24,574 nucleotides of DNA from Actinomycetes bacterium (GTDB taxonomy: Bacteria > Actinomycetota > Actinomycetes > Actinomycetales > Cellulomonadaceae): the NCBI GenBank assembly GCA_021793115.1, contig JAJYTJ010000008.1, forward strand, positions 18,394 through 42,967, written 5' to 3'. Each line of letters begins with the position of its first letter. Position 1 is the first letter of the stretch. Below, piece by piece: positions 2,933-22,981 of this stretch. Position numbers and translations under genes: made by a program. The notes under the pieces are model-generated. The model did no database searches, was not told where the DNA came from, and worked only from the letters and a program-made list of their open reading frames with translations.

Positions 2933-3003
2933 TGGAGCGACGGGGAATCGAACCCCGATTAGAGCCTTGCAAAGGCCCCGTTCTACCGTTGAACTACCGC
3001 CCC
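2933..3003 (-). tRNA. tRNA-Ala (anticodon UGC)
   Basis: A 71-base cloverleaf on the minus strand. The acceptor is GGGGCGG/TCGCTCC with a G3:U70 wobble pair, the classical alanine identity element. The D arm is GTTC/GAAC with a short 7-base loop. The anticodon stem GGGCC/GGCTC holds the loop TTTGCAA, so the anticodon is TGC. The variable region is 4 bases, and the T arm is CGGGG-TTCGATT-CCCCG. The discriminator is A. The 3' CCA is not encoded (CCG follows), so it must be added enzymatically. A tRNA-Ile/tRNA-Ala pair after gyrA is a usual actinobacterial arrangement. Confidence 0.93.
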
Positions 3004-3307: not shown

Positions 3308-3331
3308 GAGTCCTCCTGAGGGAGAAGTGCG

Positions 3332-3405
3332 TGGGCCTAACAGGACTTGAACCTGTGACCTCTTCCTTATCAGGGAAGCGCTCTAACCGTCTGAGCTATA
3401 GGCCC
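3332..3405 (-). tRNA. tRNA-Ile (anticodon GAU)
   Basis: A 74-base cloverleaf on the minus strand. It shows acceptor GGGCCTA/TAGGCCC, D arm GCTC/GAGC, anticodon loop CTGATAA (anticodon GAT), T arm ACAGG-TTCAAGT-CCTGT and discriminator A. The 3' CCA is not encoded. It lies 56 bases downstream of the DUF3566 gene on the same strand. Confidence 0.97.
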
Positions 3406-3425
3406 GTGCGCTGCAGCGCCGGTCG

Positions 3426-3455
3426 AGACTACCCCAGCGGGTTCTTCCCTCCCAA
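3426..3455 (-). promoter_or_regulatory. Candidate promoter for tRNA-Ile
   Basis: On the minus strand TTGGGA (3450-3455) and TAGTCT (3426-3431) are separated by 18 bases, a sigma-A-like pair. The -10 box lies about 20 bases before the mature tRNA 5' end, which leaves room for a short leader. No experimental support. Confidence 0.45.
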
Positions 3456-3461
3456 ACCGCG

Positions 3462-4396
3462 TCACTCGTCGGTCATCGTCACGTGGACGCCGCCCACCAG
3501 CGCCGCCACCACGTTGTAGAGGAACGCGCCGATGGTGGCCAGGGCGGTGAGCAGGAACACGTCGAGGACGCCGATCAGCGTGGCGACCGACAGCACCTTG
3601 GAGAACTGGACGTACGACAGCACGCTGATCGAGCTCTCCGGGCCGACGATCTGCGAGACCAGGCTGTTGAGCGACGTGAACACGTGCAGCCCGTCGAGGG
3701 TCAGCCAGAGCACCGAGATCGCGACGACGAACATGATCCCGGCCGCGAACGACAGCAGGAACGACAGCTTCATGACGGACCACGGGTCCAGCCGCGAGAT
3801 CGCCAGGCGCACCCGGCGCGGGCCAGGTCCTCCGACGACAGGGGTGCGACCGGTCGCCGGGCGGACGGTCGGGGCCCCGGCGGTGGTCGCAGGCGCCGTG
3901 GGCGGCACCGTGCGGGGCGGCGCTCCGGTCACGGATGGGTTCGCGGTCATCGCGTCGTCCTTCGGGCGGGGTCTGGTCAACGAAGCGTACGCGGCGGACA
4001 CCGACGAACCGGTGGTGCTCGCCGCCTTCTTCAGCCACTGGCCGGTCTGCTCCACGGCGGTCGCCAGGGGGGAGGGCCCGTCGTCCGGATCGTCGGGCGT
4101 CGGGGGGCCGACGACCGGGAAGGGCGCCCCGGGTGCCGGCCGCAGCGCCCCGTCACGCACGGAGGCGGCGCCGTCACGCGGCGAGGCGACACCGTCGTGC
4201 GACGCGCCGTCGAAAGCTCGCGCCGGCGCCACGGACGGCTGGGGCCGGTCCGCCTGCGGAGCCGGCACCGGGCTGGTGCCGGCACCGGCCGGGGTGCCGC
4301 GGCCCCGGACCGTCGTCACCCCCCCGGCGCCTGCCGGTGTCGACGGCCGCTTGTGCGGGGGTATCGAGGGCGGGATCGAGGGCGGTGGCGCGTCAC

Positions 4397-17931: not shown

Positions 17932-18444
17932 ATGAGCGCCACCACGCCGGAGGATTCCGGTGACACCACGGTGACGAGACGCCTCGAGGAAGAGGGCGAG
18001 ATCGCGGCCGACTACCTCGAGGAGCTGCTGGACATCGCGGATCTCGACGGCGACATCGAGATCGACGTCGACCATGGCCGCGCGGCAGTGGCGATCGTTT
18101 CGGAGAACGCGTCCGATCCTGCTCTGAAGCGACTGGTCGGTCCGGCGGGCGAGACGCTCGAGGCGCTTCAGGAGCTGACGCGGCTCGCGGTCCAGGTGCG
18201 CACCGGAGACCGGAGTCGGTTGATGCTCGACGTCGCGGGCTACCGATCTGGACGAAAGGCGGAGCTGACGAGGGTTGCGGAGGACGCGATCGAGCAGGTG
18301 CGAGCTTCAGGCGCGCAGCTCGAGCTCGAGCCGATGAACCCGTTCGAACGGAAGGTCGTCCACGACGCGGTGGCGGCGGCCGGCCTGGTGTCGGAGTCCG
18401 ACGGGGTGGAGCCGTACCGGTACGTGGTGGTGCGTCCGGCCTGA
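17932..18444 (+). CDS. jag: Jag/KhpB family RNA-binding protein (KH and R3H domains)
   Basis: A cytoplasmic RNA-binding protein of 170 residues. A short acidic N-terminus with RRLEEEGEIAADYLEELLDI leads into a KH-type domain (ALKRLVGPAGETLEALQELTRLAV) and a C-terminal R3H domain (MNPFERKVVHDAVAAAGLVSESDGVEPYRYVVV). The ATG at 17932 is chosen because GGAGGAGACG lies directly upstream. An ATG at 17911 overlapping the yidC stop is possible but has a poor ribosome site. It is the last gene of the rpmH block; in most actinobacteria rsmG follows closely, but here a 2.8-kb gap intervenes. Confidence 0.95.
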   Translation: MSATTPEDSGDTTVTRRLEEEGEIAADYLEELLDIADLDGDIEIDVDHGRAAVAIVSENASDPALKRLVGPAGETLEALQELTRLAVQVRTGDRSRLMLDVAGYRSGRKAELTRVAEDAIEQVRASGAQLELEPMNPFERKVVHDAVAAAGLVSESDGVEPYRYVVVRPA

Positions 18445-18455
18445 GTGGCCGCTGA

Positions 18456-18483
18456 CCGTCACGTTTCACGTGAAACGTGACGG
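18456..18483. promoter_or_regulatory. parS: parS site 1 in a 28-bp perfect palindrome
   Basis: The ParB-binding core GTTTCACGTGAAAC (18463-18476) sits at the centre of a perfect 28-bp palindrome spanning 18456-18483. It begins 12 bases after the jag stop, so the palindrome could also act as an RNA hairpin ending the upstream transcript. Confidence 0.95.
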
Positions 18484-18646: not shown

Positions 18647-18666
18647 GCCGTTTCACGTGAAACGGC
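18647..18666. promoter_or_regulatory. parS: parS site 2
   Basis: Core GTTTCACGTGAAAC at 18650-18663, flanked symmetrically by GCC/GGC to give a 20-bp palindrome. It lies 173 bases after site 1. Confidence 0.95.
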
Positions 18667-19012
18667 TCGTCGCCGCCGTGAGGCGGACCCACCTCGAGCG
18701 CGGCCGGCCTTCGGGGGGAGCATCCGCGATGTCCGAGACCTGTCCTAGGAGGCTTGGCGGCGGCGCGGATGGTGTCCGGGCGGCGTGGAACACCCGAGAC
18801 CGGGGCTCAGTGCTACAGGCCTTGGATGGTGGGAACGTAGCGCCGTCGACGGCCGACCACGGGTTCGGCGCCGCGTGGGCTCCGTCTGCAGGTGTCCGGA
18901 CAGGTTCCTCGGCACACGGCGGTGGCGGAACGTGATGCCACCTGCCGGCAGCTGGGCCGCCGGAGCGCCACAGACGGCGGGTGCCGCCGCGCTGACATAT
19001 CGCCGCGCTGAC

Positions 19013-19022
19013 TCTGGCCTGA
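19013..19022 (+). repeat. Left copy of the 10-bp target-site duplication
   Basis: TCTGGCCTGA directly abuts the left terminal inverted repeat. The identical sequence follows the right terminus at 20112-20121, in the same orientation. Confidence 0.85.
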
Positions 19023-19063
19023 AGGGCTATCCATCTGACTGACACACCTATGTGCTGGTCAGC
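19023..19063 (+). repeat. Left terminal inverted repeat
   Basis: 41 bases, inverted relative to 20071-20111 with two transitions, at 19046 and 19051. It ends inward with GTGCTGGTCAGC. Confidence 0.9.
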
Positions 19064-19179
19064 GCCCGGCGCCAGGAACGATGCACAATCGGCGGGCGTG
19101 GCTCTCGGGATCGGTTCTCCGGCATAGCCGGGCGACGCGTTGACCGCGTCCCATCACCGGACCACTCGTCGCCGCTGCA

Positions 19180-19728
19180 TCACTCCTCGGCCTCCAGTCG
19201 GTCTTGCCGCCTCATGTCGGCACCCGGGGCCTGGTCGAGGGCGGCTTCGATGAGTTCGTCGACGTCCACGACAACATCCGCCGGAAGGTAGGTCCTCGCG
19301 TTGCGCGTCGCGCCGTCGGACTCGCGAGTGACCATGACGCTCACCAGCACACCCAACGGGCCCGTCGTCATCCCGGGTCGCAGCACATCGATCGACTCGA
19401 CCTCGCCGACAGGGATCCGCACGCCGCCCCCGCGCACGCCTTCCAGCACAACCTCCGCGGTCGTGATCCGCAGTCGCGTACGGCTCATCGTCCCTTTCCA
19501 CCAAGCGGCGTAGGCGACGTCGCACACCACCACCACAGCGGCTGCGTTGGCGTAGGCGACGAGTCCTGCACCGGAGGCGACGGCCGCCACGAGCGGAAGC
19601 ACCGCGATGATCGCCAGGATCATCGCCAGCCGGCCGCGCAGCCACCCAGGATCAGCGCGCAGTTCGTAGAGCACGTTCCCCACGACTGGACGGCCCTCCG
19701 GACCGAAGGACTCCCAGGGCTTACTCAT
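19180..19728 (-). CDS. Small membrane protein with PH-like C-terminal domain (element passenger)
   Basis: A 182-residue protein. A polar N-terminus (MSKPWESFGPEGRPVVGN) leads to two hydrophobic segments at about 34-53 and 57-76. A soluble part at 80-165 is rich in short beta strands (RLRITTAEVVLEG, GGVRIPVGEVESIDVL, PLGVLVSVMVTRES). This layout resembles bacterial PH-like membrane proteins, but no diagnostic residue allows a firm call. High third-position GC supports coding. The ATG at 19728 has only a weak upstream GGTGAGA. It is the only credible gene within the inverted-repeat element and runs opposite to the flanking jag and rsmG genes. Function unknown; it may be a passenger. Confidence 0.75.
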   Translation of the reverse strand: MSKPWESFGPEGRPVVGNVLYELRADPGWLRGRLAMILAIIAVLPLVAAVASGAGLVAYANAAAVVVVCDVAYAAWWKGTMSRTRLRITTAEVVLEGVRGGGVRIPVGEVESIDVLRPGMTTGPLGVLVSVMVTRESDGATRNARTYLPADVVVDVDELIEAALDQAPGADMRRQDRLEAEE

Positions 19729-20070
19729 GTGAGCATCTCACCCATTCCTTGACCAGTCTGCTGTTGGAACGTTCGGCTCTTGACTGAATGGCGGCGACCG
19801 CGACCGTGGCGGCTTTGGTGACAAGAACGGCGGCCGCGAGGGTGCGGCCGACGGTGCTGATCTTGCTCGCAACATCGCCAGCGTGACCTTGGTTTCGGCA
19901 CTCAGGTTCGTCGTCGCCCCCAAGGCGCCACTGCACCGGCGTGCGGCAGCGTTCAGAGATCGACGGGTCAGAGCGATCCGAAGGCGGCTGCGATCTCGCA
20001 AGGCGATCGTGAGGCCGCTGTGAGCGTGGCGCCTCGGCGGACGCTCGCGCAGGCCGCGGCCGGGTGAGCT
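19729..20070. other. Inner right part of the mobile element, no clear gene
   Basis: About 340 bases. A plus-strand frame through about 19793-20020 contains RDRRVRAIRRRLRSRKAIV, and a minus-strand frame 19721-19936 runs into the start of the membrane-protein gene. Neither matches a family I recognise. It may hold the passenger-gene promoter or the remains of a lost transposase. Confidence 0.4.
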
Positions 20071-20111
20071 GCTGACCAGCACGTAGGCGTGTCAGTCAGA
20101 TGGATAGCCCT
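20071..20111 (-). repeat. Right terminal inverted repeat
   Basis: 41 bases, the inverted partner of 19023-19063 (39 of 41 identical). It ends outward in GGATAGCCCT. Confidence 0.9.
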
Positions 20112-20121
20112 TCTGGCCTGA
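20112..20121 (+). repeat. Right copy of the 10-bp target-site duplication
   Basis: TCTGGCCTGA, identical and parallel to 19013-19022. Removing the element and one copy restores a continuous CTGAC-TCTGGCCTGA-CTCTG empty site. Confidence 0.85.
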
Positions 20122-20410
20122 CTCTGCGCGTGGGCGGAGGGGTTTGCGGTCCGGCGCACGGCGAGGCGGTGCGGCGTAGGTGTGGGGCTCGGCGGCTGCG
20201 AGCTCCAGCGCGGCCCGGATGGTTGCGGCCGGGTGGACTATCAGGCGGTGTTCCACGACCTCGTCGGCGCTCGCAGCCTGCGAGCCGACCGCGCCTCCAC
20301 CAGCGGGTGGTCGGGTCTTCGAACACGTCGCGCTCCACTCCGCCGTCGCCCCACCGGCCCTCGGGCCGTCCGACGTCGGTGGTTCTCCCGGCGCCCGCCG
20401 TTACCGGGCC

Positions 20411-20974: not shown

Positions 20975-20992
20975 CCGTTTCACGTGAAACGG
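20975..20992. promoter_or_regulatory. parS: parS site 3
   Basis: Core GTTTCACGTGAAAC at 20977-20990 with CC/GG flanks, an 18-bp palindrome, about 225 bases upstream of rsmG. Confidence 0.95.
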
Positions 20993-21915: not shown

Positions 21916-22981
21916 GGGAAAGCGCCGTTCGGCACCGGTTGCGACACCAGAGCTCGGGCTCGACATCCGCGAGGTGCCTTCAAGCGCGGCCGGCTCCGTC
22001 ACGCCAGAAGGCGCCGGGGAGTTCGGACCGCGCCCGGCCGGCGATCCCGGGCCACGACGAGCTGCCGATCCCGGGCGACCGGGGGGTGGTGATCCCGCAG
22101 AGGCCGGCACCTCCGGAGCGGTGGCGAACCCCGGAGCATCGTGGCAGCGGTGGTCGGCACAGCCGACTGGCGAAGCGACGACCGCGACCAGGGAGGGCGC
22201 GGGCCGGCAGGTCTGGCCGGGGGATGACGTCACGACGGTCTCGTCAGGAACTGAGCGTGGTGGGTTGGCAACCCCCGGCGGCGAGGCCGGCGCCGAGCAC
22301 GTGGCGACGATCGGGGAATCGATCGTGGCCCGGTCGCGCAGTGCTTCGGACGCGCGCGCCGACGATGGTGGCGATGCGAGAACCTCGGCTGCGACCGTGA
22401 CAGCGCCGACGGTACCGGCCGGCACCACGCGTTCTGGTGAGGGGGCGGAGGAAGTCGGCGATCCCGATGCCACATCTCTCGCCACTGGGTGGACGAACAC
22501 CACCAGTCCTCGGACTGCAGGGTCGACCATGGCCGGATCGCCACCTGACGTCAGCAGCGCTGGCAACGGGAGCGTTTCACGTGAAACGGCCTCGGCGGGA
22601 ACACAGGCGACACTGGGCGGTGGAGTCCATCTCGGCGACGGGCTCGGTGGCAAGGAGCGCCACGATGCCGGTCGCCTCGGCGATCCACTGCTAGATGTGG
22701 TGCCCGACCCGCCGGTTCACCTCACGACCGATCTCTCGATCGACGAGGCCGCGAGCGGGGAAGTGGCGCCGGACCCCCATCGTGTTGCGACACGAAACAT
22801 GACAAATCGCCCAGCAGGAGGTACGGAGTTGGACGGTTCGCATGGCACCCTTACGACGTCGACCGGACCGTCGGTCGACATCACGCCAGCAGCTGTCGAT
22901 CGGCATGACGAACCTTCCGTCGGGAACCGCACCGATGAAGGCCGGCTGGCAGTGAGACGAGCGGAGGGAGCGGACCCCGGC
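21916..22981. other. rsmG-parA spacer, or N-terminal extension of ParA
   Basis: About 1.07 kb containing parS site 4. It is stop-free in the parA frame back to a GTG at 21878 inside rsmG, so it could encode up to 368 extra Ala/Gly/Pro/Thr-rich residues. Third-position GC, which I counted by eye, is only about 62-76 percent here, against about 82 percent just after 22982 and about 92 percent around the ParA P-loop. Other frames on both strands are also open. I therefore treat it as mostly non-coding. An in-frame ATG at 22529 just before parS would give a 553-residue ParA with VSRET, as in Mycobacterium ParA. Confidence 0.5.
22573..22588. promoter_or_regulatory. parS: parS site 4
   Basis: Core GTTTCACGTGAAAC at 22574-22587 with C/G flanks. 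In the parA frame it would read VSRET, the same peptide that parS encodes near the ParA N-terminus of Mycobacterium tuberculosis. Confidence 0.95.

Follow-up and report, generated by a model that had tools for sequence, protein, structure and literature searches.

A likely mobile insertion cassette with IS1595-type ends beside the replication origin of an actinobacterium

Positions 19022-20112 of the window, i.e. the whole stretch of 24,574 nucleotides from a member of the Cellulomonadaceae that was analysed here, are taken up by a 1091-bp element situated near oriC, with jag on one side and rsmG on the other. This element is a non-autonomous IS1595 derivative and not an IS, no zinc-ribbon/DDE transposase of its own being found in 19022-20112, and is very probably a mobile insertion cassette of IS1595 type. 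A preliminary description of this DNA had proposed such a cassette, moved in trans, and the proposal is favoured by the ends, the target duplication and the displaced gene block reported below. Two copies of an IS1595-type end would have come to flank a chromosomal gene segment, and a cognate IS1595-family transposase (zinc-ribbon and DDE domain) encoded at another locus would have moved the whole unit in trans. The unit would then have inserted between jag and rsmG, staggered cuts giving the 8-bp duplication, and the cargo gene is maintained by selection.

Anatomy of the element in the origin region

The window is taken to be an actinobacterial origin region, with ORFs that we assign, in this order, to gyrA, gyrB, recF, gnd, dnaN, dnaA, then rpmH, rnpA, yidC, jag, rsmG and parA; jag ends at 18444 and the element lies in the gap that follows. 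Around jag, rsmG and parA, four CGTTTCACGTGAAACG sites are present (window 18462-18477, 18649-18664, 20976-20991 and 22573-22588), which we take to be the parS sites used in chromosome partitioning. The cassette sits between the second and the third of them, and the stretch compared in the related genome G001, introduced below, has five such 14-mer cores. Two tRNA genes were also located by Rfam on the minus strand (window 2933-3003 and 3332-3405).

The layout of the element is given in Table 1. The inverted ends are 42 bp long, match at 40 of 42 bases and are identical over the first 24; at up to 3 mismatches, the 40-mer end consensus has two sites in the window and none in 100 dinucleotide shuffles, so that the inverted ends claimed in the preliminary description are real. 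The direct repeat abutting them, also claimed there, is present as well, its preferred length being 8 bp instead of 10. As read directly, the sequence runs ...TCTGGCCTGA-AGGG...CCCT-TCTGGCCTGA..., which permits a 10-bp duplication with AGGG ends; cut at AAGGG...CCCTT, it gives the 8-bp duplication CTGGCCTG on both sides of the element. The latter reading is preferred, and the 10-bp one set aside, because transposase-bearing relatives show 8-bp duplications and because the distance from TATC to the tip is then equal in three of the loci compared (L053, L031 and L104).

Table 1. Features of the element and its borders (window positions)
Feature	Position	Strand	Basis
Left copy of the 8-bp target duplication, CTGGCCTG	19014..19021		Sequence; 8/8 against the right copy
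Left terminal inverted repeat, beginning AAGGGCTATCCATCTGACTGACAC	19022..19063	+	End comparison, pattern search, folding
Left inner stretch, from end to captured block	19064..19169		Not covered by the long blastn alignment with the G001 chromosome, whose first window position is 19170
Captured block	19170..19999	-	82.8% identity to the Cellulomonas sp. 73-92 chromosome (L047 9385-10216), no such ends found there
Cargo gene, 182-aa protein, predicted two hydrophobic helices then PH-like domain (weak fold support)	19180..19728	-	Homologues, model, dN/dS < 1 against the G001 copy
Possible short upstream frame (weak), ending ...RLVKEWVRCSHE	19725..19880, extent approximate	-	Translations
Right inner stretch, from captured block to end	20000..20070		Long blastn match stops at 19999
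Right terminal inverted repeat	20071..20112	-	End comparison, pattern search, folding
Right copy of the target duplication, CTGGCCTG	20113..20120		Sequence; 8/8

Regarding the interior, tblastn with the transposases of three relatives gave a best E of 0.05 within the element, and none of the four element ORFs tested has a Pfam or NCBIfam match above cut-off, in agreement with the earlier view that no transposase is encoded inside. The ORF with support as a gene is that of 182 aa, which indeed lies, as had been noticed, on the strand opposite to jag and rsmG. The stop of the possible short frame, a weak candidate, overlaps the start of this gene and a similar frame exists in G001 (RLVKEWVGWTHE); a search of 18950-20200 for a sigma-70-type promoter returned no match.

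The probably captured block, its cargo gene and the relative G001

The captured block aligns by blastn, over 833 columns and at 82.8% identity, with contig C8 of the MAG Cellulomonas sp. 73-92 (G001). The boundaries of such matches were taken from blastn; a loose local alignment overran the likely limits. G001 is the closest relative by rsmG among the matches listed (67% vs at most 59% for other family genomes), a match being present in 215 of the 221 family genomes, and its origin region is 84-92% identical to that of the window for the two longest aligned pieces. The element finds no match in the jag-rsmG gap of G001 (about 1.9 kb), though the flanking genes align. The same gene block thus stands at another site of G001, and the site occupied in the window is without it in the relative. 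When the whole of G001 was searched with the element, the C8 block, one end at locus L001 and a single 48-base match were returned; over G001 and G089 together, and with the block and the L001 end set aside, only two short matches of about 50 bases were found.

The preliminary description had looked to relatives lacking the block for the empty site, and this expectation is borne out in part: of the relatives found, the closest is free of the block here and carries the gene elsewhere without ends, but divergence of the intergenic DNA prevented alignment of the precise empty site. With the joined flanks as query, the best local alignments correspond to the shared putative parS site, with scores of 34 and 36 vs 38 reached in 30 shuffles.

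The cargo gene is rare. A search of 5.8 billion proteins yielded 7 homologues, the one of the window included (6 besides), and the cargo profile matched twice in the 396 genomes of the order and likewise, in a separate search, in the 221 genomes of the family, namely in G001 (1.3e-99) and in G052 (1.3e-4). The G052 match lies inside a 1700-codon frame and was not counted as a real relative. A strong match is accordingly present in one of the 221 family genomes, at a locus other than that of the window, and conservation of the block at this locus across many relatives, which the preliminary description had held out against its own proposal, is not seen. Between the window and G001 copies, 155 of 183 codons (stop included) have the same translation, substitutions fall 11, 18 and 43 times on the first, second and third codon positions, and dN/dS is 0.26 (NG86) or 0.13 (YN00). 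From this codon-position bias and these ratios, it follows that the gene is real and under purifying selection, which is a statement about the gene and not about its usefulness to the cassette.

The encoded protein is probably anchored in the membrane and may carry a PH-like domain, the fold support for the latter being weak. Helices are predicted at residues 27-52 and 56-80, both hydrophobic in a simple hydropathy scan, followed by six strands and a helix; the model, built on an alignment of 7 sequences, has a mean pLDDT of 73.6, and PH domains rank first among its PDB matches, with E of about 0.03 and none reaching 0.001 or below. Comparison with Pfam, NCBIfam and PADLOC gave no family for the cargo, and among the homologues scanned (P0005-P0007), P0006 and P0007 gave sub-cut-off matches only (DUF2244, PCDO_beta_N; DUF3093).

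The rarity of the gene, with its single strong match in the family, would also suit a reading in which the chromosomal copy of G001 is the derived one, a cassette having landed there and lost its ends by decay and the gene having travelled mainly in cassettes; the window element would still be a cassette. This is rather unlikely. Homology to G001 ends some 70-105 bp inside both window ends, and, with as many as 8 mismatches allowed, nothing resembling the 24-bp end turns up in the 19-kb L047 locus around the G001 block, where a shortened query of 20 bases finds only sites with 5-6 mismatches, at least 6 kb away from the gene. Capture of a resident chromosomal segment between IS1595-type ends is the preferred reading.

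End sequences and IS1595-family elements

Judged from sequence comparison, the window ends are best read as fitting one subgroup of IS1595-family elements. A search of 396 genomes of the order with the end consensus AAGGGCTAYCCATSTGACTGMCA (up to 3 mismatches, the reversed pattern serving as control) located 13 places in 7 genomes vs 1 place for the control. The exact 22-mer of the end occurs once in the genome collection, at locus L001 of Cellulomonas sp. 73-92, with no transposase adjoining it; at up to 3 mismatches it occurs in 3 of the 221 family genomes, i.e. the same MAG, G139 and G214. The G139 match (L003) was taken as chance, the site reading as ordinary coding sequence, and G214 contains a 170-bp element with both ends. 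In both G214 and G391, such ends are present and no transposase match was found. Beyond chromosomes, the window end has no match among viral contigs and two matches of 18-19 bases among plasmids; the region 18400-21100 matches no plasmid and the element no phage.

The link to a transposase comes from other genomes of the order. Contig C138 of G287 starts with a complete IS of 1359 bp with ATGGGTTATCCATGTGACTGCCC ends, whose 349-aa transposase belongs to the IS1595 family (PF12762, 2.5e-26; NF033547, 2.8e-51). A second IS with such ends (L032) has a transposase 77% identical, and at three further loci a single such end stands directly ahead of a cut-off transposase gene (83% identity over 273 aa in L033, 78% over 130 in L035, 70% over 27 in L040). 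The subgroup comprises two full IS copies, of 1203 and 1359 bp. Compared with the window end over 23 positions, its transposase-linked ends show 4-7 differences and those of the miniature elements 3-5, and no transposase with ends identical to those of the window was found among the genomes searched. Six transposase loci outside the subgroup, 46-55% identical to L015, have more divergent ends, and the sole IS1595 copy found in G001 carries other ends. The search with the 41-bp end recommended in the preliminary description, for copies flanking a transposase gene, was thus fruitful to the extent that close ends do flank transposases elsewhere, which points to IS1595 as the helper family.

Target duplications were compared at 15 IS1595-type transposase loci. 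At 6 of them the inverted ends are accompanied by a duplication of 8/8 and at one by a duplication of 7/8; 8 are without ends having a duplication of at least 7/8. Examples in which TATC has the same distance from the tip are L053, with AAYGGGTATCC ends and the duplication TTGGCCTA, and L031, with GTTGGGTATCT ends and the duplication ACGTATGT. No convincing end pair was recognised at L049, L050, L034, L103 and L105; the ends are paired at L052, with a duplication of 5/8, and at L044 and L032, where contig edges cut them. Among elements devoid of transposase, a 204-bp one (L039) has AAGGGCTATCCAG... ends and GATTGGTC on either side, an 8/8 duplication, and a miniature element with such ends at L041 has a 7/8 duplication; at L004 both ends are present and the duplication is not clean (3/8). 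Of note, the L041 miniature (204 bp, in 3325-3558) is followed, beyond a 7-bp gap, by the start of a third IS1595-type end, which suggests nested or adjacent insertions.

The size of the window element, near the 1203 and 1359 bp of the complete IS in the subgroup, and the roughly 70-105 bp per side that the captured block leaves unexplained would suit a history in which an autonomous IS1595-family IS once resided here and had its transposase gene replaced in place by a host gene, the present unit never having moved as a cassette. Such a replacement is unlikely: no transposase remnant better than the E of 0.05 mentioned above is left in the element, and ends matching at 40 of 42 bases together with an intact 8-bp duplication are most simply explained if the present unit inserted whole.

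Besides, a hairpin is possible in each end (window 19035-19062 and 20072-20099), and the two differences between the ends fall on partner positions (A-T vs G-C), so that pairing is kept. That the ends are repeats with a regulatory or structural role (paired hairpins, for instance) and the duplication arose by chance is nevertheless hardly credible, as similar termini flank transposases and, in some elements, are accompanied by duplications, and as folding of 20 ends gave z values of -2.1 and -2.3 for the window ends vs -1.5 to +1.6 for the other 18. Since z falls below -1.5 in the two window ends only, the hairpin was rejected as a conserved structure of the family. Occurrence of the ends as ordinary dispersed regulatory repeats free of duplications, the other observation that the preliminary description had named against a cassette, is likewise not seen.

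A probable second cassette and comparison with known systems

The single exact copy of the end in Cellulomonas sp. 73-92 belongs to a probable second cassette, at 3575-4283 of L001, which would carry a different protein of similar predicted architecture. The exact end is at 4260-4283 and, counted from the tip, is identical to the left window end over 24 bases and to the right one over 25; a degenerate partner lies near 3575. The interior has a 196-aa frame, whose model (pLDDT 70.5) shows two helices then strands and matches best in the PDB a DH-PH-PH protein (E 0.025, none at or below 0.001); PF03703 is found in 7 of 89 homologues of this protein. A chromosomal copy in G089 matches only 3667-4207, inside the ends, at 78%; in its vicinity, no site was found for the 24-bp end with 8 mismatches or fewer, and a single one, with 6, for the 20-mer. 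The assignment is graded as probable only because the left end is poor and there is no clear duplication, the best one being 6/8 at a poor position.

Profile comparison between the cargo of the window and the L001 cargo family gave a probability of 1.7, i.e. no detectable homology. It could be imagined that, in this Cellulomonas lineage, small genes for membrane proteins with a PH-like domain have been captured and spread time and again by IS1595-type ends, giving a set of cassettes with interchangeable cargo of one architecture. The window element and L001 would then have arisen by two separate captures, sharing the 24-bp end but with cargo proteins of no detectable sequence relationship; such a generalisation appears quite improbable.

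With its gene also present in place on a related chromosome, the window element illustrates how an ordinary host gene can be brought to a new location, in this case next to the origin of replication, by an IS family although the unit itself has no transposase. Such cassettes are easily overlooked by annotation, and a defined end sequence is now available for finding more of them in actinobacteria.

As regards known systems, mobile insertion cassettes (MICs) carry a passenger gene, as the window element does, and MIC231 goes with IS231, an IS4-family element. Transporter IS are IS copies that keep their own transposase, unlike the window element. The latter shares with IS1595-family IS (PF12762/NF033547) the AAGGGYTATCC-type termini of one subgroup, the 8-bp duplication and a similar size, the IS copies encountered here being about 1.0-1.4 kb, and is unlike them in having no transposase gene and a host-type gene in its interior. 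The miniatures L039, L041 and L004 also have similar ends and no transposase but, at 170-204 bp, are too short for such a gene.

The passages of PMC3129680 on mobile insertion cassettes describe them and their activation by a cognate transposase, and part of PMC3281130 treats them as well. MICs such as MIC231 of Bacillus cereus, which is named there in a reference title, share with the window element the IS ends and the lack of a transposase of their own, and activation by a cognate transposase is what would apply to the window element too; the latter differs from MIC231 by its IS1595-type ends and its actinobacterial host. In Transporter IS, the IS ends likewise enclose a passenger gene with no role in transposition, and their link to IS1595 is given by the citation of the IS1595 paper (Siguier et al., 2009) in the Transporter IS passage of PMC3129680. 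With no claim that IS1595-type cassettes are unreported, the window element is regarded here as a further mobile insertion cassette.
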